Shown: positions 98-8,314 of the stretch, piece by piece
Layout of the letters: every line of letters begins with the position of its first letter
Numbering within the stretch: the first letter of the stretch is position 1
Source of the DNA: Deltaproteobacteria bacterium
GTDB lineage: Bacteria > Desulfobacterota > Desulfobacteria > C00003060 > C00003106
Direction: 5' to 3'
Length of the DNA: 8,314 bases
NCBI GenBank assembly: GCA_019314005.1
Contig: JAFDAE010000085.1
Span: 1-8,314, forward strand
Notes under the pieces: model-generated
Seen by the model: only the letters and a program-made list of their open reading frames with translations
Told to the model about the DNA's origin: nothing
Database searches by the model: none
Translations under genes and position numbers: made by a program

Positions 98-1420
98 TCA
101 CCTTTTTACTTTTAGCGCAACCGTAAACGTAGTTCCTCGAGGTTTCTTAGAGGAATCCACCGTACTGCTTTCGCAGGTGATAGACCCTTCGTACTTGCTT
201 ATAATCCCGTGGCTCACAAAGAGACCCAGTCCCGTCCCTTCTCCTTCCTTCTTGGTAGTAAAAAACGGGTCAAAGATTTTGTCCATATTTTCTTCCGGAA
301 TACCGTGACCGCTATCCCGGACCATTACCACTACTTTGTCACGATTTGCATTTAGAGAGGTTTTAACCTCTAAGACTCCTGTCTCTTTAATAGCTGCCGC
401 CGCGTTATTGATGAGATTCAGAAAGACCTGCTGCATTTGACGCGAATCACCTTTTACTCTGGGAAGACCGGATGCCAGGCCTAAGCGAAGTTCAATGTCG
501 TTCATGTCGAGCGAATGTTTGACCACGTTAATGATAGCCTTAATAGCTTCATTGATATCACAATGCTCGGATACACCTTCACCATGGTGGGCAAAGCTCA
601 GCAGGTTTGCCACTACTGCCTTGCAATGTAGGCTATGTCGTTCGATAGTTCTCAAGTCCTCATAACTCTGACTGCCCTTGTCAGTTTTTTCCAAAAGGAG
701 ATCAGTAAACCCGAGTATGATGCCAAGGGGGTTGTTGACCTCATGTGCCACGCCCGCAGCTAAGGTTCCCATGGAGGCAAGCTTTTCGGTATTCACCAGT
801 TGGTTTTCCAGTTTCTTACTTTCAGTAATATCTCTGGCAATGCATAGAACCGATACCACCTTTCCTTGTTCGTTTTTGCGAGGCATGAAATTGGCGCTGA
901 GCCATGTCTGATGTTCCCCTGTGGTTACCATAAATTCATCCCTCACGCTTTTCCCAAACTTAAAAACCAGTCTGATGAGCTTGAGCTGTTGTTCGGCAAT
1001 CTCCGGTGAAAAAAGCGCTGACAAGGGTTTGCCTACAAATTGGGAAGGGGTACCCCCAAAAAAAACCGCGGTAAAGTTGTTGAGAGACCGAAAACGGCCC
1101 GAGGCGTTTACCGTGAAAATAAAGTCCTCGGCGCTCTCCACCAGACTTCGATATCTTTCTTCAGACCTTCTGAGTGCTCTGGTTTTTCCGGATAACTGAT
1201 TCAGAAGTCTGCGAAAGCCCCATTGGTCATAAAATAGGGCGCCTCCTATTCCCGCAAGGAGTGTAAAAATCCCCAAACCATGAAGCCAAAAAAAGCTGTG
1301 AACGCTTTCATGGGGTGATCGAATACTTATCATCAGCGTTGAGACAAAACAGAGCAGGCTGATAGACCAGGCAGTTATAATAGTAGCCTTGATGATTTTG
1401 AGTGAGTTTTGGAAGTCCAT
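98..1420 (-). CDS. Membrane-bound PAS-domain sensor histidine kinase
   Basis: A 440-residue hybrid-free sensor kinase that should autophosphorylate on His226 and pass phosphate to a receiver, probably the regulator encoded 12 nt downstream. Two hydrophobic segments (about 15-33 and 43-64) are joined by only about 9 residues, so there is almost no periplasmic sensor and the signal is probably cytoplasmic or within the membrane. A PAS domain follows at about 86-205 (starting SEERYRSLVESAEDFIF, ending CIARDITESKKLE). The HisKA H-box is around AAGVAHEVNNPLG (221-233). The HATPase_c domain shows the N-box NLINNAAAAI (335-344), G1 box DSGHGIP (369-375), F-box FDPFFTTK (383-390) and G2 box GEGTGLGL (393-400), all intact. 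No good Shine-Dalgarno lies just before the ATG; with a 24-nt gap to the preceding gene, translation may depend on that gene. The ligand cannot be predicted. Confidence 0.92.
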   Translation of the reverse strand: MDFQNSLKIIKATIITAWSISLLCFVSTLMISIRSPHESVHSFFWLHGLGIFTLLAGIGGALFYDQWGFRRLLNQLSGKTRALRRSEERYRSLVESAEDFIFTVNASGRFRSLNNFTAVFFGGTPSQFVGKPLSALFSPEIAEQQLKLIRLVFKFGKSVRDEFMVTTGEHQTWLSANFMPRKNEQGKVVSVLCIARDITESKKLENQLVNTEKLASMGTLAAGVAHEVNNPLGIILGFTDLLLEKTDKGSQSYEDLRTIERHSLHCKAVVANLLSFAHHGEGVSEHCDINEAIKAIINVVKHSLDMNDIELRLGLASGLPRVKGDSRQMQQVFLNLINNAAAAIKETGVLEVKTSLNANRDKVVVMVRDSGHGIPEENMDKIFDPFFTTKKEGEGTGLGLFVSHGIISKYEGSITCESSTVDSSKKPRGTTFTVALKVKR

Positions 1421-1444: not shown

Positions 1445-4054
1445 CTATTGGGTGAGTTTCGCCTTGCACTCCTCGTCAAGATTGTAATTCCCTTCCATGA
1501 AGGCCTGAACCACACAGTCAATACTCGATTCACTCGTCATTAACATATCCATCTGACGAGTGAACTGGTTGAGCCGCCCTAACATATCGAGCTTTTTCTC
1601 GATTATTTCCTGTTCATGCTTTTTGATTCGAGCGTTAAGCAGATCTTCCTTCACATCGACCGCAAACCCCAGATTTCCCAGGATCTTGGCGATAGCCCTG
1701 ACCCTTCTTGTGCGTCGGGTATGGTCGGCCGCTCCCCCTTTGAAACGGAAGCTTATGTAATTCTTGTTCGGTTTCAGGCCACAGTAGGTATCAATGGTGG
1801 CAAAGTGATAGCCGATTCTCGAACTAAAATTTAAATATTTGTCTGAGATAATAGCATAGCTCTTGTCTCCCAGGCTGCGCCCAAGGTCAGGAGACTTGAA
1901 CATCTGTCGTCCCATAACAGAGAGAAAACCCTTGATATCTATAGATCGCGGTTCGTGCCATCGGATACCTTTGTGAGTCATCCCCTTGAGCAATGCCTTC
2001 AGCGGGATGGAGGTAATATCCCCCAGAGTCGCTTGTCTTGTCTCGTACGTTTTTTGATCGGTCAGCCCCCCTCCCATATCAATAACGTAGAGCTTTATTG
2101 GAAGCGCCACATCTAAATGGATGGCTATATTCTCCTCGTCGCTCAATACGTCACTAATTTTGAACATTTGCGCGAAAGACTTTTCATGAACATAGCGGGC
2201 GATATCATGGATAGAACCACAGAACCGGGGGGCAAACTTTTTGTTTTCGGTGTCGGTTAAGTGGAGCGGGATGACATAGTGACAAATTCTTTTTAACGTC
2301 TGATATACCGGGGTATTCTTCATATAGGTTTCGGCGACATGATCCAAACGGAGAAGTTCCATGACTTTCCCCTGGTAGACCCGACCTGTGTAGGCATCAA
2401 CGGTTATTTCCATCTCTGCGGGAATCTTTTCCGAGGCCGCCTGGGCGCCAACAATTGTGGGAACCTTGAACTCTCTGGCCAGAGAGGCCATGTGACCCGC
2501 GATTCCTCCAGCGTCGGTCACAATAGCCTTGGCCTTGTTCATGAGGCGGACAAACTTTGGCGAAGAATATCTCGCCACAAGGACGCCTCCCTCAGGAAAA
2601 TTGATTATGTCTTCGTCCCTGTATACATGGTAGGCCTGACCGTAGCCCACACCCGGATAGGCAATTGAACCTTTTTCGATTAACACGGGGTAGCCGGATA
2701 TTTTCGCGTAGGTATCTTTAAGCCCGCTTTTTTCGTAAGTAGAAACACTTAACGGACGGGACTGCAGAATGATTAACTCTTGTTTAGAATTCAGGGCCCA
2801 TTCCACATCCTGGGGCGATCGAAAATGCCTTTCCAGGGCCACAACCACTTTAGCCAAGGTACGAATTTCAGCATCGGTGAGACAGGATTGATTCTTGCTT
2901 TCATCCGGAACAGGGATTTCTATGAGACCACCTCCGGGATTGCTGCTCAATTGGACATCTTTCACCGGGGCCTTGCTTTCGAGGATCGTAAAGTTTTCGT
3001 CTTTACTTACGACGTACACATCCGGTTGGACGGCGCCGTCAACAGCATAAGGTCCCAGGCCCCATACGGCATTAATAATAATGTTGTCTTCTATAGGGCT
3101 GTATGGATGTCGGGAATAGGCGACTCCGCTGACCACCGAATCGACCATTTCCAGACAGCCGACACTCATCGCTGTATCTCTTTCCCTAATTCCCTTGTTC
3201 AGGCGGTAGAAGATAGCCCGTTGTGTATAGAGGCTGGCAACAACATATTTATATGACTGAACTATTTTTTCACGCGGAACATTGAGCATTGAGAGATATT
3301 GACCGGCATAAGAAAGCTCACTGTCTTCCCCTACTGCGCTGCTTCTCAAAGAAACCCGCGGCGTGTGGCCCAATCTATCCGAAAGTTCTTGGTAGGCGCC
3401 TAAGATGGCCTCTTTCATTTTTGTGGGGATACGGGCTGTAATGATTAGGTGTTGAATTTCTTCACTTACCCGTTCAATGCTCCGAGGATCGCTCAGGTCT
3501 AACTGCATATTTCTTTTGTTAATTTCGTCTTGAAGGTTATTTTGCTCCCAAAAGTACTGATAGGCGGAGGTAGTAATAATGAACCCGTCGGGTATGGTCA
3601 AGTTGACCTTGTTCTTGATTTCTCCCAGATTGGCATTCTTGCCGCCCATACTATCGAACATGTTCCTGTTGACCGCTGTGTATGGAACAATCAGTTCAAT
3701 AATGGGTATTTCCTTTTGCTGATAAAGTTCCGTCTTTATATTTTTATTTATTTGTTCCAGGGCATCATAGAGAGGCAGGTATTTGTCTCCGGAGATAATG
3801 TTTAGATTTTTGACCATACGGAAGGCATGGAAGGCGGCCCTTGTGGCTGTAGAACGGATGTAAGACATGCCGAATACGTCATGCCCGGCTAATTTTTTTT
3901 TCAGATCTGCTACTATTACAAGGATTTCATCATTAGAAGAAATAAGCTCTCTGAAATAGACGTATTTTAGTTTAAACTTTGCCTGCAGGTCGGCTCGGAG
4001 GGAAGGGGGGCGTTTCCTGCTCCGGCGAAAGAGTTTTTGAAAATACTTAATCAT
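1445..4054 (-). CDS. PEP-synthase/PPDK-like protein with ATP-grasp and phosphohistidine domains but no PEP-binding barrel
   Basis: Numbering is from the ATG at 4054 (869 aa). Residues 1-120 form a helical, basic N-terminal extension. Residues about 122-438 form a PPDK_N-type ATP-grasp domain: GGKNANLGE (Lys139), LRSSAVGED (Arg237), EMVDSVVSGVAYSRHP (Glu302), DVEWAL (Glu418) and LQSRPLS, all matching nucleotide-binding positions of PEP synthase and PPDK. Residues about 489-562 form the mobile phosphohistidine domain with His521 in GGIAGHMA. After it, PEP synthase normally has a TIM barrel with a GTNDLTQ-type motif. I see none; instead about 300 residues of unrecognised sequence include VIDMGGGL, a basic stretch SFRFKGGAADHTRRTRRVR (about 768-786) and a charged helical end. 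The frame extends upstream to a TTG at 4120 (891 aa), but that TTG has no Shine-Dalgarno and lies just below a possible -10; the ATG also lacks one, so the start is uncertain. Lead gene of an operon with a kinase and regulator; a signalling or phosphotransfer role is inferred. Confidence 0.85.
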   Translation of the reverse strand: MIKYFQKLFRRSRKRPPSLRADLQAKFKLKYVYFRELISSNDEILVIVADLKKKLAGHDVFGMSYIRSTATRAAFHAFRMVKNLNIISGDKYLPLYDALEQINKNIKTELYQQKEIPIIELIVPYTAVNRNMFDSMGGKNANLGEIKNKVNLTIPDGFIITTSAYQYFWEQNNLQDEINKRNMQLDLSDPRSIERVSEEIQHLIITARIPTKMKEAILGAYQELSDRLGHTPRVSLRSSAVGEDSELSYAGQYLSMLNVPREKIVQSYKYVVASLYTQRAIFYRLNKGIRERDTAMSVGCLEMVDSVVSGVAYSRHPYSPIEDNIIINAVWGLGPYAVDGAVQPDVYVVSKDENFTILESKAPVKDVQLSSNPGGGLIEIPVPDESKNQSCLTDAEIRTLAKVVVALERHFRSPQDVEWALNSKQELIILQSRPLSVSTYEKSGLKDTYAKISGYPVLIEKGSIAYPGVGYGQAYHVYRDEDIINFPEGGVLVARYSSPKFVRLMNKAKAIVTDAGGIAGHMASLAREFKVPTIVGAQAASEKIPAEMEITVDAYTGRVYQGKVMELLRLDHVAETYMKNTPVYQTLKRICHYVIPLHLTDTENKKFAPRFCGSIHDIARYVHEKSFAQMFKISDVLSDEENIAIHLDVALPIKLYVIDMGGGLTDQKTYETRQATLGDITSIPLKALLKGMTHKGIRWHEPRSIDIKGFLSVMGRQMFKSPDLGRSLGDKSYAIISDKYLNFSSRIGYHFATIDTYCGLKPNKNYISFRFKGGAADHTRRTRRVRAIAKILGNLGFAVDVKEDLLNARIKKHEQEIIEKKLDMLGRLNQFTRQMDMLMTSESSIDCVVQAFMEGNYNLDEECKAKLTQ

Positions 4055-4125
4055 AAGCAGATTATAAAAAAATTGAGATACCTTTTGGGGGTAGTTTACA
4101 TTTTTCCAACCAAAGTTCAATAGAA

Positions 4126-4766: not shown

Positions 4767-5876
4767 TTGTTTGAAACTATGACAAGAGAGGTGCCTCTTC
4801 CTCTGGCGATTGTCGACAACAGCGGACAGATAATATTTGCCAACAAATGCTCGGAAGAGCTTTGCGGATACAGTCGGGGGGAATTCGTAGGGATGAACTT
4901 GCGAGATCTGTGTGCGCCTTACGAACAGAACCGATATATCTTCACAAAGTTGTCTAACATCCAAAAAACGATGGAGGTCGATATTGACCTTAAGCGGAAA
5001 AGTGGCGAGACCTTCACAGCAAACGTCTCCTTCGCCCCCTTTCACCATCATGGGACACCATACCTCTTTCTAATTTTCAGAGACGTAACCACAAGGCGGG
5101 TGCAGGAAGGAAAAACTCGAGAAGATGAGGAGCGGTACCGCAGACTACTTGAAGAACGGAACATATTGCAGGATCAGCTCCATCGGTCCAGTAAGGTTGC
5201 CTTTATGGGTGAGTTGGCCGCTGGTATTGCCCATGAAATCAACAATCCTCTTGGGATTATCCTCGGATTTGTCCAGGATATTTTAGAGGAAATTTCTTCG
5301 GATAATCCTATCTTTGAATCGATTAAGATTATTGAACAAGAGACGGCTCGGTGTGCGGATGTGGTGAAGGAATTTTTGGACTTTGCCCGGTTAAAACCCC
5401 CGGAGAGGACATCTGTGGACATCGTCGAACTTCTTGAAGATTCCATTGTATTACTTACGCCCAGAATTAAGCAAAACAGGGTCGGCATCAAAAGGGCTTT
5501 TGGGGAAGGACTACCTGCCATTGAGCTTGATCCACAACTCATACAGCAAGTTTTCCTTAATGTAATGATTAATGCGATTCAAGCAATGCCTGACGGGGGG
5601 AATCTTGACCTTGGGATCGATCTTGTTCGCATTCGTCAGGCGGGAGAACCCGAAGAGTACGTGAGGATAACGATATCGGATACAGGCTCCGGGATATCTG
5701 ACAAAGATTTTTTTTTTTTTTTTTATCCCTTTTTCACGACTAAGGGAAGCAAGGGGACAGGATTGGGGCTTTCGGTTTGCCAGCGTGTCATGGAAGACCA
5801 CCAAGGGAAGATTGAAATAAATCGTCGTAAGGGATCCGGAACCACGTGCAGTCTCTATTTGCCGATAAAGGATTGA
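4767..5876 (+). CDS. Soluble PAS-domain sensor histidine kinase (TTG start, T17 run in the ATP-binding domain)
   Basis: A 369-residue cytoplasmic kinase without membrane segments. The PAS domain is at about 5-110 (LAIVDNSGQIIFANKCSEEL through IFRDVTTRR), then a charged helical linker (112-140), HisKA with His156 in AAGIAHEINNPLG, and HATPase_c with N-box NVMINAIQAM (265-274), G1 DTGSGI (305-310), F-box YPFFTTK (320-326) and G2 KGTGLGL (329-335). The TTG start is chosen because GGAAGGAG (4753-4760) sits 6 nt upstream; an in-frame ATG at 4779 is less well placed. Just before the F-box a run of 17 T (5708-5724) encodes five consecutive Phe where the family has a mixed helix such as the PEENMDKIF of the neighbouring kinase. 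The distance from G1 to F-box is unchanged, so the frame is intact. It lies between two receiver genes and probably phosphorylates one or both. Confidence 0.92.
   Translation: MFETMTREVPLPLAIVDNSGQIIFANKCSEELCGYSRGEFVGMNLRDLCAPYEQNRYIFTKLSNIQKTMEVDIDLKRKSGETFTANVSFAPFHHHGTPYLFLIFRDVTTRRVQEGKTREDEERYRRLLEERNILQDQLHRSSKVAFMGELAAGIAHEINNPLGIILGFVQDILEEISSDNPIFESIKIIEQETARCADVVKEFLDFARLKPPERTSVDIVELLEDSIVLLTPRIKQNRVGIKRAFGEGLPAIELDPQLIQQVFLNVMINAIQAMPDGGNLDLGIDLVRIRQAGEPEEYVRITISDTGSGISDKDFFFFFYPFFTTKGSKGTGLGLSVCQRVMEDHQGKIEINRRKGSGTTCSLYLPIKD
5708..5724 (+). repeat. Homopolymer run of 17 T inside the kinase gene
   Basis: Seventeen uninterrupted T residues within the HATPase_c coding region, producing DKDFFFFFY. 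Any single-base slip would frameshift the kinase before its F and G2 boxes and destroy ATP binding. It may be a slippage-prone switch or a sequencing or assembly artefact. Confidence 0.95.
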
Positions 5877-5985: not shown

Positions 5986-6005
5986 GACTTTTTACGACAC
6001 CATCA
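5986..6005 (+). repeat. 20-bp repeat copy (GACTTTTTACGA core) before the activator gene
   Basis: GACTTTTTACGA at 5986-5997 recurs exactly at 8216-8227, and the next 8 bases match at 5 positions, giving 17 of 20. Both copies lie in leaders shortly before a gene start and in the same orientation. Confidence 0.6.
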
Positions 6006-6022: not shown

Positions 6023-7387
6023 ATGTTGGCAAAGATTTTAGTGGTGGATGATGAAGAGCATATGCGCAAGCTCTTTGAAAAAATCCTTACCAAGGAAGGG
6101 CATGAGGTGCGAACCGCTGCCAACGGAAACGAGGCTATCGGCATGTTGGAAGACGAGACATTTGATTTGATGATCTCTGATCTCATGATGCCTGTCCTTG
6201 GCGGCATGGACCTGTTGAAAGAGGTCAAGGCCAGACATTTGGACATTCCGTTTATTGTGATCACCGCCTACGGGACTATTGGATCAGCTGTTGAGGCTAT
6301 GAAGGCAGGGGCATTCGACTACCTGACCAAGCCCTTTCAGAAAGATGATATCCGCCTGGTAGTGAGTAAGGCCTTACAATACTGCGAGCTTCGTAATGAG
6401 GTCAGACGACTCCGCGAGGAGTTAATAGGGAAGGACGGAGTCGAAGAGATTATTGTCAAAAGCAAGGCCATGCAAGAGGTGTTCAAACTCGTTGCCAAGG
6501 TAGCGGACAGTCAGGCCACAGTTCTTCTCCAGGGAGAGAGCGGCACAGGCAAGGATCTGGTTGCCAGGTCTATTCACAACCTGAGCAGTCGGAGAAACAA
6601 ACCGTTTATCGCTGTGGATTGTGGTGTTTTTCCGGAACACCTTCTGCAAAGTGAGCTGTTCGGCCATGTTAAAGGGGCGTTTACCGGTGCGGTCAAAGAT
6701 AAAAAAGGGCTGTTTATCGCGGCAGACGGCGGCACGCTCTTCCTGGACGAGATTGGCAGCATCTCTCCGGCCATGCAATTGAACCTGCTACGTGTTCTTC
6801 AGGAAAAGGAGGTAAGGCCGGTAGGAAGCATCAAGAGTATTAAAGGAGATGTTCGGGTGGTGGCGGCCACAAATATAGACCTTGAGCAGGCCATACATGA
6901 GGGGAGGTTCCGAAAGGATCTTTATTACCGATTGGCTGTTGTCACCGTCAAGGTGCCTCCGCTCAGGGAAAGAAAGGAGGCTATTGCCTCGATAGCCTAT
7001 CACTTTATGCGAAAGTATGCTGCTATTTACAATAGGGACCTTTCTGATATCACTCCGGAAGCTATGCACGCCATCATGGAAAACTCTTGGCCCGGAAATG
7101 TTAGAGAGCTTGAGAACGTCATGGAACGCGCGGTTCTTCTGAGTACCGGACCACTCATTGATGAGGCGTCGCTCCCCTCATCTATCATGCAAGGTTTGGA
7201 CGGAGACAAGGGGGCGCAGCCTCTCAAGAGCGCAACCAGGAGTGTAAGCCGTAAGGCGGAAAGAGAGGCCATACTAAAGGCCTTGAGAGATTCAAAGGGG
7301 AACAAGACCAGGGCCGCTCAGATTCTGGGCATCAGTCGAAGTTCCTTGTATAATAAAATAGGAGAACTTGACATAGGGAAACCATAA
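6023..7387 (+). CDS. NtrC-family sigma-54-dependent response regulator
   Basis: A 454-residue transcription activator that, when phosphorylated, should hydrolyse ATP to open sigma-54 promoter complexes. Receiver domain 3-120: VVDDEE (Asp9-Asp10), phospho-acceptor Asp53 (ISDLMMP), Thr81, Lys103. AAA+ domain about 142-378: Walker A GESGTGKD (171-178), the sigma-54 contact loop GAFTGA (218-223), Walker B GGTLFLDEI (236-244), arginine region RFRKDLYYRL (295-304), sensor II WPGNVREL (356-363). A Fis-type helix-turn-helix is at about 412-447 (NKTRAAQILGISRSSLYNKI). All key motifs are intact. The frame extends to a TTG at 5984, but the ATG at 6023 is preferred: AAGGGGA (6012-6018) lies just before it and the receiver begins two residues later. 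The family resembles AtoC/ZraR types, but no specific name is justified. The dyads 20 nt and about 510 nt beyond its stop are its likely targets (inference). Confidence 0.95.
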   Translation: MLAKILVVDDEEHMRKLFEKILTKEGHEVRTAANGNEAIGMLEDETFDLMISDLMMPVLGGMDLLKEVKARHLDIPFIVITAYGTIGSAVEAMKAGAFDYLTKPFQKDDIRLVVSKALQYCELRNEVRRLREELIGKDGVEEIIVKSKAMQEVFKLVAKVADSQATVLLQGESGTGKDLVARSIHNLSSRRNKPFIAVDCGVFPEHLLQSELFGHVKGAFTGAVKDKKGLFIAADGGTLFLDEIGSISPAMQLNLLRVLQEKEVRPVGSIKSIKGDVRVVAATNIDLEQAIHEGRFRKDLYYRLAVVTVKVPPLRERKEAIASIAYHFMRKYAAIYNRDLSDITPEAMHAIMENSWPGNVRELENVMERAVLLSTGPLIDEASLPSSIMQGLDGDKGAQPLKSATRSVSRKAEREAILKALRDSKGNKTRAAQILGISRSSLYNKIGELDIGKP

Positions 7388-7406
7388 AAGGGCGCAGTTG
7401 GAAAGA

Positions 7407-7433
7407 GTGTCCAAACAGATGGACAGTATCCAA
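7407..7433. promoter_or_regulatory. Activator-binding dyad A (TGTCCA-N6-TGGACA plus third half-site)
   Basis: TGTCCA (7408-7413) and its inverse TGGACA (7420-7425) are separated by 6 bp, with a degenerate direct half-site TATCCA (7427-7432) one base on. The 18-bp dyad has the size of NtrC-type enhancer sites. It starts 20 nt after the stop of the sigma-54 activator. An extra TGGACA lies at 7458-7463. The same arrangement recurs at 7900-7924. Confidence 0.6.
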
Positions 7434-7480
7434 GCTACGCCAACGCATCATTCAATTTGGACAACCAAGGCTAACATGTC

Positions 7481-7530
7481 GTGTAATAATAAGAAGTTGT
7501 GAAACCCTGCCTTAACGATTTAACGAATTC
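7481..7530 (+). repeat. AT-rich repeat following dyad A
   Basis: TAATAATAAG-AAGTT, followed by TTAACGATTTAACGAATTCC (7511-7530), matches the segment after dyad B: TAATAATAAGTAGTT (7975-7989) and TTGACGATTCGATGCGTTCC (8005-8024, 14 of 20 identical). With the dyads, this defines a diverged direct repeat of about 130 bp. Confidence 0.55.
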
Positions 7531-7586
7531 CCGAGCCTATTATTGATGACTATCTTTTCCCACCGGCGACCGCCTCACCATTAGCG

Positions 7587-7606
7587 ATTATCTGTAAATA
7601 CAATAA
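7587..7606 (+). repeat. 20-bp repeat ATTATC..AATACAATAA, copy 1
   Basis: ATTATCTGTAAATACAATAA matches ATTATCAGTCAATACAATAA at 8091-8110 in 18 of 20 positions. Both are followed after a short gap by CTCTAT and then by a sigma-54-type promoter candidate. Confidence 0.75.
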
Positions 7607-7623
7607 AACAAGTTTCACGCCTC

Positions 7624-7636
7624 TATCAATTTATTG
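7624..7636 (+). promoter_or_regulatory. Candidate IHF-binding site
   Basis: TATCAATTTATTG fits the consensus WATCARNNNNTTR at every position. It lies between dyad A and the -24/-12 element at 7715-7732, where IHF bending is typically used to bring a sigma-54 activator to the polymerase. Confidence 0.45.
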
Positions 7637-7642
7637 AAATAT

Positions 7643-7682
7643 CAGTGCTTTTCATATGTAATTGTTGAAAATTGTTGCACTG
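7643..7682 (+). other. Interrupted hairpin before the first sigma-54-type promoter
   Basis: CAGTGC pairs with GCACTG (7643-7648 with 7677-7682), and inside it TTTTCA pairs with TGAAAA (7649-7654 with 7666-7671), leaving a 5-nt bulge on the right arm and an 11-nt loop. TTTTATTGG follows. It could be a weak terminator for the activator gene or simply a binding dyad. Confidence 0.3.
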
Positions 7683-7684
7683 TT

Positions 7685-7720
7685 TTATTGGTTTAATCGG
7701 TCTTATTGGTTGAATTGGTT
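7685..7720 (+). repeat. Nonamer tandem repeat (four units)
   Basis: TTATTGGTT, TAATCGGTC, TTATTGGTT and GAATTGGTT follow each other without gaps. The last unit supplies the TTGG of the -24 element at 7715-7732. Confidence 0.7.
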
Positions 7721-7732
7721 CAAAACTTGCTT
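7715..7732 (+). promoter_or_regulatory. Sigma-54-type promoter candidate P1 (TTGG-N8-TTGCT)
   Basis: TTGGTTCAAAACTTGCTT has GG (7717-7718) and GC (7729-7730) at the required 12-bp offset, with a full TTGC and A/T following. The centre of the -24 box departs from GCACG. A start near 7742 is predicted. No gene follows until about 8313, so it would make a leader of roughly 570 nt or a non-coding transcript. Confidence 0.4.
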
Positions 7733-7898
7733 CAAAATGGGGTTTTGGAGTTGTAACTTACTGAAACTACACAACCGCAAAATAGAAAAGGTAGGATTTG
7801 GATCAGCTTTTGACGAAATAAAACGAATGGAACCAATAAAACTGTAACGTAACGACAGGTTATCCCAAGAAATATGGAGTGGTGAGCACCCACAGAAA

Positions 7899-7925
7899 GT
7901 GTCCAACTAAATGGACAGTGTCCAA
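7899..7925. promoter_or_regulatory. Activator-binding dyad B (TGTCCA-N6-TGGACA plus third half-site)
   Basis: TGTCCA (7900-7905), TGGACA (7912-7917) and a perfect third half-site TGTCCA (7919-7924) repeat the geometry of dyad A exactly, including the 6-bp and 1-bp gaps. Relative to the start predicted from the promoter at 8142-8158 it lies about 245-270 bp upstream, a normal enhancer distance. Confidence 0.65.
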
Positions 7926-8025
7926 AAGGCGTCGGAGTGTTCGTCAGTTTGAGCAGTAACATTTATCATTGTCAATAATAATAAGTAGTTAACGAAGACA
8001 TATATTGACGATTCGATGCGTTCCA

Positions 8026-8035
8026 GTGTCCAAAA
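8026..8035 (+). promoter_or_regulatory. Single TGTCCA half-site upstream of promoter P2
   Basis: GTGTCCAAAA repeats the 10 bases at 7918-7927 exactly (12 identical bases counting CA before it). It lies about 140 bp before the predicted P2 start and may be a low-affinity or remnant activator site. Confidence 0.4.
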
Positions 8036-8060
8036 TGCTAAGTGAAAAAATACCCCGCCA

Positions 8061-8076
8061 CTGCCAGGTCAGGCAG
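8061..8076. other. Short dyad CTGCC-N6-GGCAG
   Basis: Perfect 5-bp arms with a 6-bp centre, about 95-110 bp before the predicted P2 start. No T-run follows, so it is not a terminator; it could be a protein site or chance. Confidence 0.3.
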
Positions 8077-8090
8077 CATTAACATTCATA

Positions 8091-8110
8091 ATTATCAGTC
8101 AATACAATAA
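8091..8110 (+). repeat. 20-bp repeat ATTATC..AATACAATAA, copy 2
   Basis: Second copy of the motif at 7587-7606 (18 of 20). The sequence around it (TAACATT ... GTCAATA.AATAAGT.GTTA.CG.. GACAT) also resembles 7957-8000, so this AT-rich element occurs in several diverged forms. Confidence 0.7.
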
Positions 8111-8141
8111 GTTATCGTTCGACATCTCTATTGCCTCTCCC

Positions 8142-8158
8142 TTGGTATACTCCCTGCT
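8142..8158 (+). promoter_or_regulatory. Sigma-54-type promoter candidate P2 for the gene at the window end
   Basis: TTGGTATACTCCCTGCT has GG (8144-8145) and GC (8156-8157) 12 bp apart with TTGG and TGCT intact, a common form of the -24/-12 consensus. Transcription would start near 8169, giving a leader of about 145 nt to the start codon at 8313. Its position downstream of dyad B and the 8026 half-site, and beside an NtrC-type gene, supports it. Confidence 0.5.
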
Positions 8159-8196
8159 ATGTAAAACAATAAGAACTGCCAAGCTTGATGATTTCA

Positions 8197-8224
8197 TAAA
8201 AAGTCGTTCACACAAGACTTTTTA
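8197..8224 (+). other. Hairpin TAAAAAGTC/GACTTTTTA in the leader
   Basis: A perfect 9-bp inverted repeat around a 10-nt loop, within the leader predicted from P2. The right arm is the start of the GACTTTTTACGA repeat shared with 5986-5997. The stem is AT-rich; it resembles a weak terminator or attenuator, or a dispersed repeat element. Confidence 0.5.
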
Positions 8225-8235
8225 CGAAGCCGTCA
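8216..8235 (+). repeat. 20-bp repeat copy (GACTTTTTACGA core) in the final leader
   Basis: Matches 5986-6005 in 17 of 20 positions, including 12 consecutive bases. Here it is preceded by an inverted copy of its first 9 bases, forming the 8197-8224 hairpin; the upstream copy lacks that arm. Confidence 0.6.
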
Positions 8236-8300
8236 AATATAGTCACATTAAATGTTTTTATATTTCCAACATCTCTAGCGCTTATAAGCTACACCGAAAG

Positions 8301-8314
8301 TAAGGAGGGAAAAT
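8301..8314 (+). promoter_or_regulatory. Strong ribosome binding site and first bases of the next gene
   Basis: TAAGGAGG (8301-8308) is a near-perfect Shine-Dalgarno. The window ends in AT at 8313-8314, correctly spaced to be the first two bases of an ATG. The coding sequence lies outside, so the product is unknown. Confidence 0.65.

Follow-up and report, generated by a model that had tools for sequence, protein, structure and literature searches.

Why does the DNA just downstream of an NtrC-type activator gene carry the same array of half-sites twice, and does this doubling imply one promoter or two? The question is raised by an 8,314-nucleotide contig (JAFDAE010000085.1, assembly GCA_019314005.1) from a deltaproteobacterium related to sulfate reducers, which was analysed as a whole and is called the window here. 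No convincing gene is found in the 925 bp that follow the activator gene, and the gene that probably starts at 8313 runs beyond the contig end (Table 1). An earlier note, made from the letters alone, had proposed a tandemly duplicated sigma-54 enhancer-promoter module that would provide dosage or two-promoter control of that gene. The reading that we prefer, with a probability of about 0.7, is that the activator would act through a duplicated enhancer feeding a single predicted sigma-54 promoter, at 8142-8158, for a CheY-DASS operon predicted at 8313.

Table 1. Genes, half-site arrays, promoter candidates and repeats of the window, with the basis of each assignment or a remark
Feature	Positions	Strand	Basis or remark
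Second kinase	98-1420	-	profile match
PEP-synthase-like protein	1445-4120	-	profile match
Receiver-only response regulator, 148 aa	4299-4745	+	Pfam PF00072
PAS-HisKA-HATPase histidine kinase	4767-5876	+	Pfam
NtrC-type sigma-54 activator	6023-7387	+	receiver, AAA+ with GAFTGA, Fis-type HTH
Distal array, TGTCCA-N6-TGGACA-N1-TATCCA	7408-7432	+	20 bp after activator stop codon
Isolated half-site	7458-7463	-	hexamer scan
Distal AT-rich copy (CACCATTA...AATACAATAA)	7572-7606	+	repeat D2
Broken -24/-12 remnant, TTGAAATATCAGTGC	7634-7648	+	aligned to 8142 element
Stretch between 29-nt imperfect inverted arms (I1)	7679-7845		inverted-repeat scan
Upstream -24/-12 candidate	7715-7732	+	consensus 11/13, equal to 8142
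Proximal array, TGTCCA-N6-TGGACA-N1-TGTCCA	7900-7924	+	identical 25-mer in G016
Lone half-site	8027-8032	+	116 bp before -24 TGG
AT-rich element, AATACAATAAGTTATCGTT, kept in family	8076-8119	+	alignment of 6 promoters
Predicted sigma-54 -24/-12 promoter, TTGGTATACTCCCTGCT	8142-8158	+	consensus 11/13, conserved in relatives
Dispersed inverted-repeat element (I3) in leader, outside promoter module	8185-8236		
Ribosome-binding site AAGGAGG and first two bases of probable ATG at 8313	8302-8314	+	sequence

The activator scores above the Pfam cut-offs for PF00072, PF00158 and PF02954, which qualifies it as an NtrC-type protein, and in an alignment with five orthologues of 75-78% identity the receiver residue D53 is invariant and GAFTGA is present in the window protein. 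The activator with GAFTGA and a Fis-type HTH that the earlier note had placed just upstream of the arrays is thus borne out. As for its identity within the NtrC type, it falls below the NCBIfam equivalog cut-offs for AtoC (496 against 714 bits), NtrC (425 against 559), ZraR (416 against 760) and GlrR (408 against 763). Structure-sequence searches found nothing more specific than general relatives of the NtrC and SLC13 types. Among the relatives that could be located, the best matches come from five deltaproteobacterial MAGs with activators of 75-78% identity, one of them labelled Desulfobacterales and one Eth-SRB1. Eth-SRB1, first described from its partnership with archaea that degrade ethane, forms one family of Desulfobacterales together with Seep-SRB1a (PMC10553843, 2023). 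Two proteins, P0003 and P0004, are 92% and 87% identical to the window activator and are both recorded with a longest contig of 39,255 bp, a hint that some close relative has two activator copies on one contig.

A kinase homologue is encoded upstream of the activator gene in all seven related loci examined, including L027 and L058, and the kinase encoded at 4767-5876 is probably the partner of the activator. Inside this kinase gene there is an in-frame run of 17 T at 5708-5724; the site reads DFFFFFYPFFTTK in the window and ALDRVFDPFFTTK in the relative L027, and it represents either an error of sequencing or assembly or a genuine change of the F box. The receiver-only protein encoded just before the kinase shares 61% identity over 137 aa with a receiver encoded in the L005 permease cluster. 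Related loci also encode, after the activator gene, a receiver protein of 187-201 aa with a cysteine-containing C-terminal region (L005:11593-12156, with equivalents in L003, L004, L027 and L058). The window lacks such a gene, and the idea that it retains a vestige of one (the 188-aa receiver encoded between activator and array in relatives) was discarded, as tblastn gave only chance matches of 10-11 aa there.

That the half-sites are not a chance accumulation is readily established. TGTCCA or its inverse TGGACA starts at 7408, 7420, 7458, 7900, 7912, 7919 and 8027, i.e. seven times in 625 bp, and six more times in the remaining 7.4 kb of the window. The earlier note had estimated about 0.3 occurrences by chance; the 2000 dinucleotide shuffles of 7388-8314 contained 0.50 on average and never more than 4, which confirms the enrichment. 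None of these shuffles contained an exact TGTCCA-N6-TGGACA dyad, of which the region has two, at 7408-7425 and 7900-7917, each followed after one base by a third half-site (TATCCA and TGTCCA, respectively). The claim of identical N6/N1 geometry therefore stands, as does that of the same AT-rich motifs following each dyad in the same order, at two pairs of blocks (7485-7503 and 7974-7992; 7572-7606 and 8076-8110). With the dyads left out, the flanks 7434-7700 and 7926-8180 align with a score of 50, none of 500 shuffles exceeding 45, which shows the duplication to be real. By this alignment, an ancestral array-promoter module was duplicated in the window, where the dyad-to-dyad spacing is 492 bp.

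The two copies have not remained alike. The proximal one holds a further internal duplication (repeat D7, approximately 7916-8023 and 8024-8117, with a shift of 108-123 bp), of which the lone half-site at 8027 is a product. In the distal copy, the element at 7572-7606 also aligns with the promoter region of L005, above all 500 shuffles. Between array and promoter, the string AATACAATAAGTTATCGTT at 8101-8119 is conserved in six promoters of the family and fades outside it. The sigma-54 promoters of the Desulfovibrio vulgaris orp genes need IHF (PMC3897727), and an IHF site between array and promoter was considered and rejected, the best score for WATCARNNNNTTR in the proximal copy being reached by 200 of 200 shuffles. 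A full match to WATCARNNNNTTR is found in the distal copy, at 7624-7636, and was reached by 6 of 200 shuffles.

We scored -24/-12 elements out of 13 against a sigma-54 consensus, for which elements of at least 11/13 are expected 0.08 times per region on both strands together (400 shuffles). The two candidates listed in the earlier note are indeed present, each with 11/13. As judged from the sequence, the one at 8142-8158, with GG and GC at the fixed spacing, is a conserved promoter of the sigma-54 type, since elements of 11-12/13 are found downstream of the array in nine other loci (L003, L004, L005, G016, C32, G057, G246, G316 and G041). The place in the distal copy that aligns with it, 7634-7648, has lost the GG, its spacing is one base short, and the consensus scan found no element of at least 9 there.

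The candidate at 7715-7732 does not lie at the site homologous to the 8142 element. It overlaps short tandem repeats of 9, 12 and 18 bp at 7682-7737, inside the stretch 7679-7845, for which the family offers only a 27-bp match in one of 17 genomes and which is possibly an insertion. Were it functional, two tandem sigma-54 promoters would operate here, with 7715-7732 working from the distal array to yield a leader of about 570 nt or a small RNA besides the 8142 transcript. Such an arrangement would agree with a score equal to that of 8142, rarely expected by chance, and with our finding no plus-strand terminator-like site in 7380-8314. Against it, the candidate has no counterpart in the 17 family genomes, is situated 308 bp from its dyad instead of the 133-138 bp seen in relatives, and has no gene of its own behind it, no plus-strand ORF of more than 61 aa starting downstream of it within the window. 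The only two Rfam matches in the intergenic region are far below gathering scores and were taken as chance. We thus regard two promoters as rather unlikely. Of the module proposed by the earlier note, the duplication and the promoter at 8142-8158, which is conserved, are supported, whereas 7715-7732 as a second promoter is not; in place of dosage or two-promoter control, the distal copy is most likely a second enhancer, or a relic, given the lack of an intact promoter at the homologous place.

Downstream of the predicted promoter, the leader contains an element that is not part of the module. Matches to 8160-8314, mostly to 8200-8239, are found in 16 of the 17 family genomes, with 41 in G017 alone. 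The inverted repeat at 8185-8236, centred on GACTTTTTACG, is a dispersed intergenic repeat, and a similar string GACTTTTTACG also stands before the activator gene, at 5986-5996.

How the arrays relate to the activator can be judged from other genomes. The bare dyad was abandoned as a sufficient marker, because in five genomes searched two of its six places were inside ORFs (at L003 13046 in a CheY-like gene, and in a 541-aa ORF of L014), and the triple half-site took its place. Among 291 genomes of the order, exact matches to TGTCCA-N6-TGGACA-N-TGYCCA are found at five places in four genomes, and the reversed-pattern control has none. G003, G005 and G016 contribute one place each and G004:C32 two, all five upstream of CheY-DASS operons; the L004 array, with two mismatches over its three half-sites, is not among them. 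The earlier note had held that dyads inside genes would speak against its reading: in these relatives this applies to some of the bare dyads and to none of the triple half-sites. With up to two mismatches allowed, the pattern also matches two unrelated places, G005:C40 and G006:C116, the latter in a genome without an activator orthologue, and the reversed control yields three matches. In the 17-genome family the elements are nested, seven genomes having an activator orthologue (75-78%), five the permease (77-100%) and four the exact triple array; the permease gene of the fifth starts at base 246 of its contig, so that its promoter is out of view.

The order of genes and the distances are similarly maintained. 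The loci L003, L004, L005 and G016 share the succession of activator, small receiver, array, -24/-12 element, CheY-like protein, small protein and DASS-type permease. The array is separated from the TGG of the -24 element by 134 bp in L003, L005, G016 and G246, 138 bp in L004, 136 bp in G057 and 133 bp in G316, i.e. by 133-138 bp in all seven loci with a non-degenerate array beside an activator orthologue, the window excepted. There, 243 bp lie between the complete proximal dyad and the -24 element; the third half-site of L003 and L005, at 115 bp, corresponds in place to the window half-site at 8027. A fourth half-site makes two dyads 19 bp apart in several arrays (L003 and L005, each with one mismatch, as well as G057 and G316). 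The gene following the promoter is CheY-like in L003, L004, L005, G016, C32, G057 and G246, and G316 has a CBS gene followed by a CheY-like gene. G246 has the gene order of the window, i.e. receiver, kinase, activator, array, promoter, CheY and DASS, and its sole array overlaps the end of the activator ORF by 11 bases; that of G316 begins 19 bp past the stop codon, and the distal array of the window is found at the same location.

When the activator protein was used as query against 389 genomes of the order (E <= 1e-170), 12 genomes gave a match, the seven already known and five outside the family (G057 74%, G246 71%, G289 71%, G041 67% and G316 64%). G001 and G002 end too soon to judge, which leaves ten readable genomes. 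In seven of them (G003, G004, G005, G016, G057, G246 and G316) the three half-sites of the array together have at most two mismatches; the array of G041 is degenerate and separated from its -24 element by 239 bp. The array is absent from the other two, G009 and G289; no permease was detected in G009 at E <= 1e-80, nor in the 10 kb read in G289. All eight arrays beside an activator orthologue, including the degenerate one, are followed by a DASS-type permease gene; the interval between promoter and permease in G041 gave no match to a CheY-like gene. Against the association, related genes also occur without the array: a second CheY-DASS operon of G057 has a -24/-12 element and no array (best dyad with four mismatches), G014 has a permease of the C32 type (81%) without array or close activator (best 45%), and G010 has a CheY-like gene (79%) without array. 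The L005 permease passes Pfam PF00939 and scores 154 against an NCBIfam DASS cut-off of 199. On plasmids, every match to the permease was below 60% identity.

Taken together, conserved linkage, co-occurrence and spacing to the promoter support the earlier proposal that the adjacent activator probably targets the arrays. With its palindromic structure and near-fixed promoter distance in relatives, the array is probably an enhancer of this protein. Might the arrays instead be sites of another regulator, such as a different NtrC-type protein, or terminator-like hairpins, and be merely linked to 6023-7387? In favour of this, each family genome has two to nine activator-like matches at E <= 1e-100, and minus-strand terminator-like hairpins were scored at 7900-7917 and 7912-7924. 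Nevertheless, the exact triple array was found only in genomes with the orthologue, arrays adjoin it from 78% down to 64% identity, and the spacing to the -24/-12 element is kept. Even the array pair of C32, which is unlinked to the activator gene, is in a genome that has the orthologue. These observations make mere linkage quite improbable and favour binding by the adjacent activator.

Is the distal copy still in use? G004:C32 offers a comparison, with two arrays 498 bp apart, followed by a CheY-like gene and by a DASS permease that differs from the one in L005 (26% identity). The distance from its proximal dyad to the TGG, 252 bp, is near the 243 bp of the window, and its distal copy retains the AT-rich element (0 of 500 shuffles as high, compared with L005) and no intact -24/-12 element according to the consensus scan. 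The inter-dyad sequences of the two loci no longer align (139 of 500 shuffles as high), and for that reason we do not take the 498 and 492 bp as a conserved equal spacing. A TGG-N6-TGC string in C32 was considered as a broken promoter and set aside, as two alignments place it differently; only the absence of an intact element is claimed. Independent promoter losses in the window and C32 are likewise not claimed, since the C32 remnant is not firmly placed.

One version of our explanation is that the distal copy is a dead relic and that only the proximal array and promoter act. The missing promoter at the homologous place would suit a relic, as would the one mismatch in its third half-site (TATCCA). 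However, the distal dyad is still exact both in the window and in C32 despite the unalignable sequence between the dyads, which suggests retention, in two loci only. We regard a relic as possible but less likely. The exact dyads without intact promoter in these two loci rather point to a second enhancer.

We propose the following sequence of events for the duplicated enhancer with a single promoter. The kinase encoded at 4767-5876 would phosphorylate the activator, which would then bind the tandem arrays just 3' of its own gene, as conserved linkage and co-occurrence suggest. Looping of the DNA from a remote site to RNA polymerase-sigma54 is the established mechanism of the NtrC-type family, and would here bring the activator into contact with the polymerase at 8142-8158. 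The operon starting at 8313 would be switched on, and synteny predicts that it comprises a CheY-like gene followed by one for a DASS-type anion permease. The distal copy would most likely serve as a second remote enhancer of the same promoter, or be a relic.

The regulation of anion and sulfate uptake in sulfate reducers is still largely a matter of inference. Control of DASS clusters by two-component systems was proposed in 2025, with no sigma-54 activator named in the text concerned (PMC11887813). The locus described here offers a candidate activator and a 25-bp site, together with a promoter geometry that is almost constant and a target operon open to testing, and the activator-site pairing could be traced across activator identities of 78% to 64%. 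Its array layout is the one that relatives use ahead of an operon for anion, possibly sulfate, uptake. It is tempting to speculate that a hitherto undescribed sigma-54 regulon for DASS (possibly sulfate) uptake exists in Desulfobacterales including Eth-SRB1, and that its module was doubled in one branch, with the upstream copy retained as a promoter-less enhancer in two lineages; this broader proposal is tentative. A doubled array with one surviving promoter is also, on a small scale, nature's own test of whether enhancers in bacteria can be retained independently of promoters.

Several known systems resemble this one in part. The DASS sulfate-transporter clusters of Desulfobacteraceae are associated with two-component systems, CBS proteins and WalR-type regulators (PMC11887813). 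Similarly, the relatives L005 and G316 have the DASS permease gene near those for two-component response regulators and CBS-domain proteins; the section of that study on such clusters names neither a sigma-54 activator nor an enhancer. D. vulgaris, which belongs to a different order of bacteria, has mostly small sigma-54 regulons, nine operons of which include TSUP or PSE transporters (PMC4641369, Kazakov 2015; PMC3333781, Rajeev 2011). As proposed for the window, its NtrC-type activators are often encoded beside their own sigma-54 targets. One group of their motifs has TGT and ACA 12 bp apart (PMC4641369), which is the spacing of TGTCCA-N6-TGGACA, and DVU2956 has three conserved half-sites, like the triple array (PMC4641369; PMC3333781). 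Neither main text contains the strings TGTCC or GGACA, the motif logos being figures, and a duplicated array-promoter module is not noted there for these regulons. The enhancer consensus of GlrR/QseF, TGTC-N10-GACA, includes TGTCCA-N6-TGGACA as one case, and several putative sites precede the glmY promoter, as in the window (PMC8745638). The window protein differs from GlrR in its score, as given above, and in its target. The text of the literature searched yielded no earlier description of the array site or its regulon. What we regard as new is thus the particular site, the predicted regulon and the duplicated module, set in an NtrC-type/sigma-54 arrangement that is already well known.
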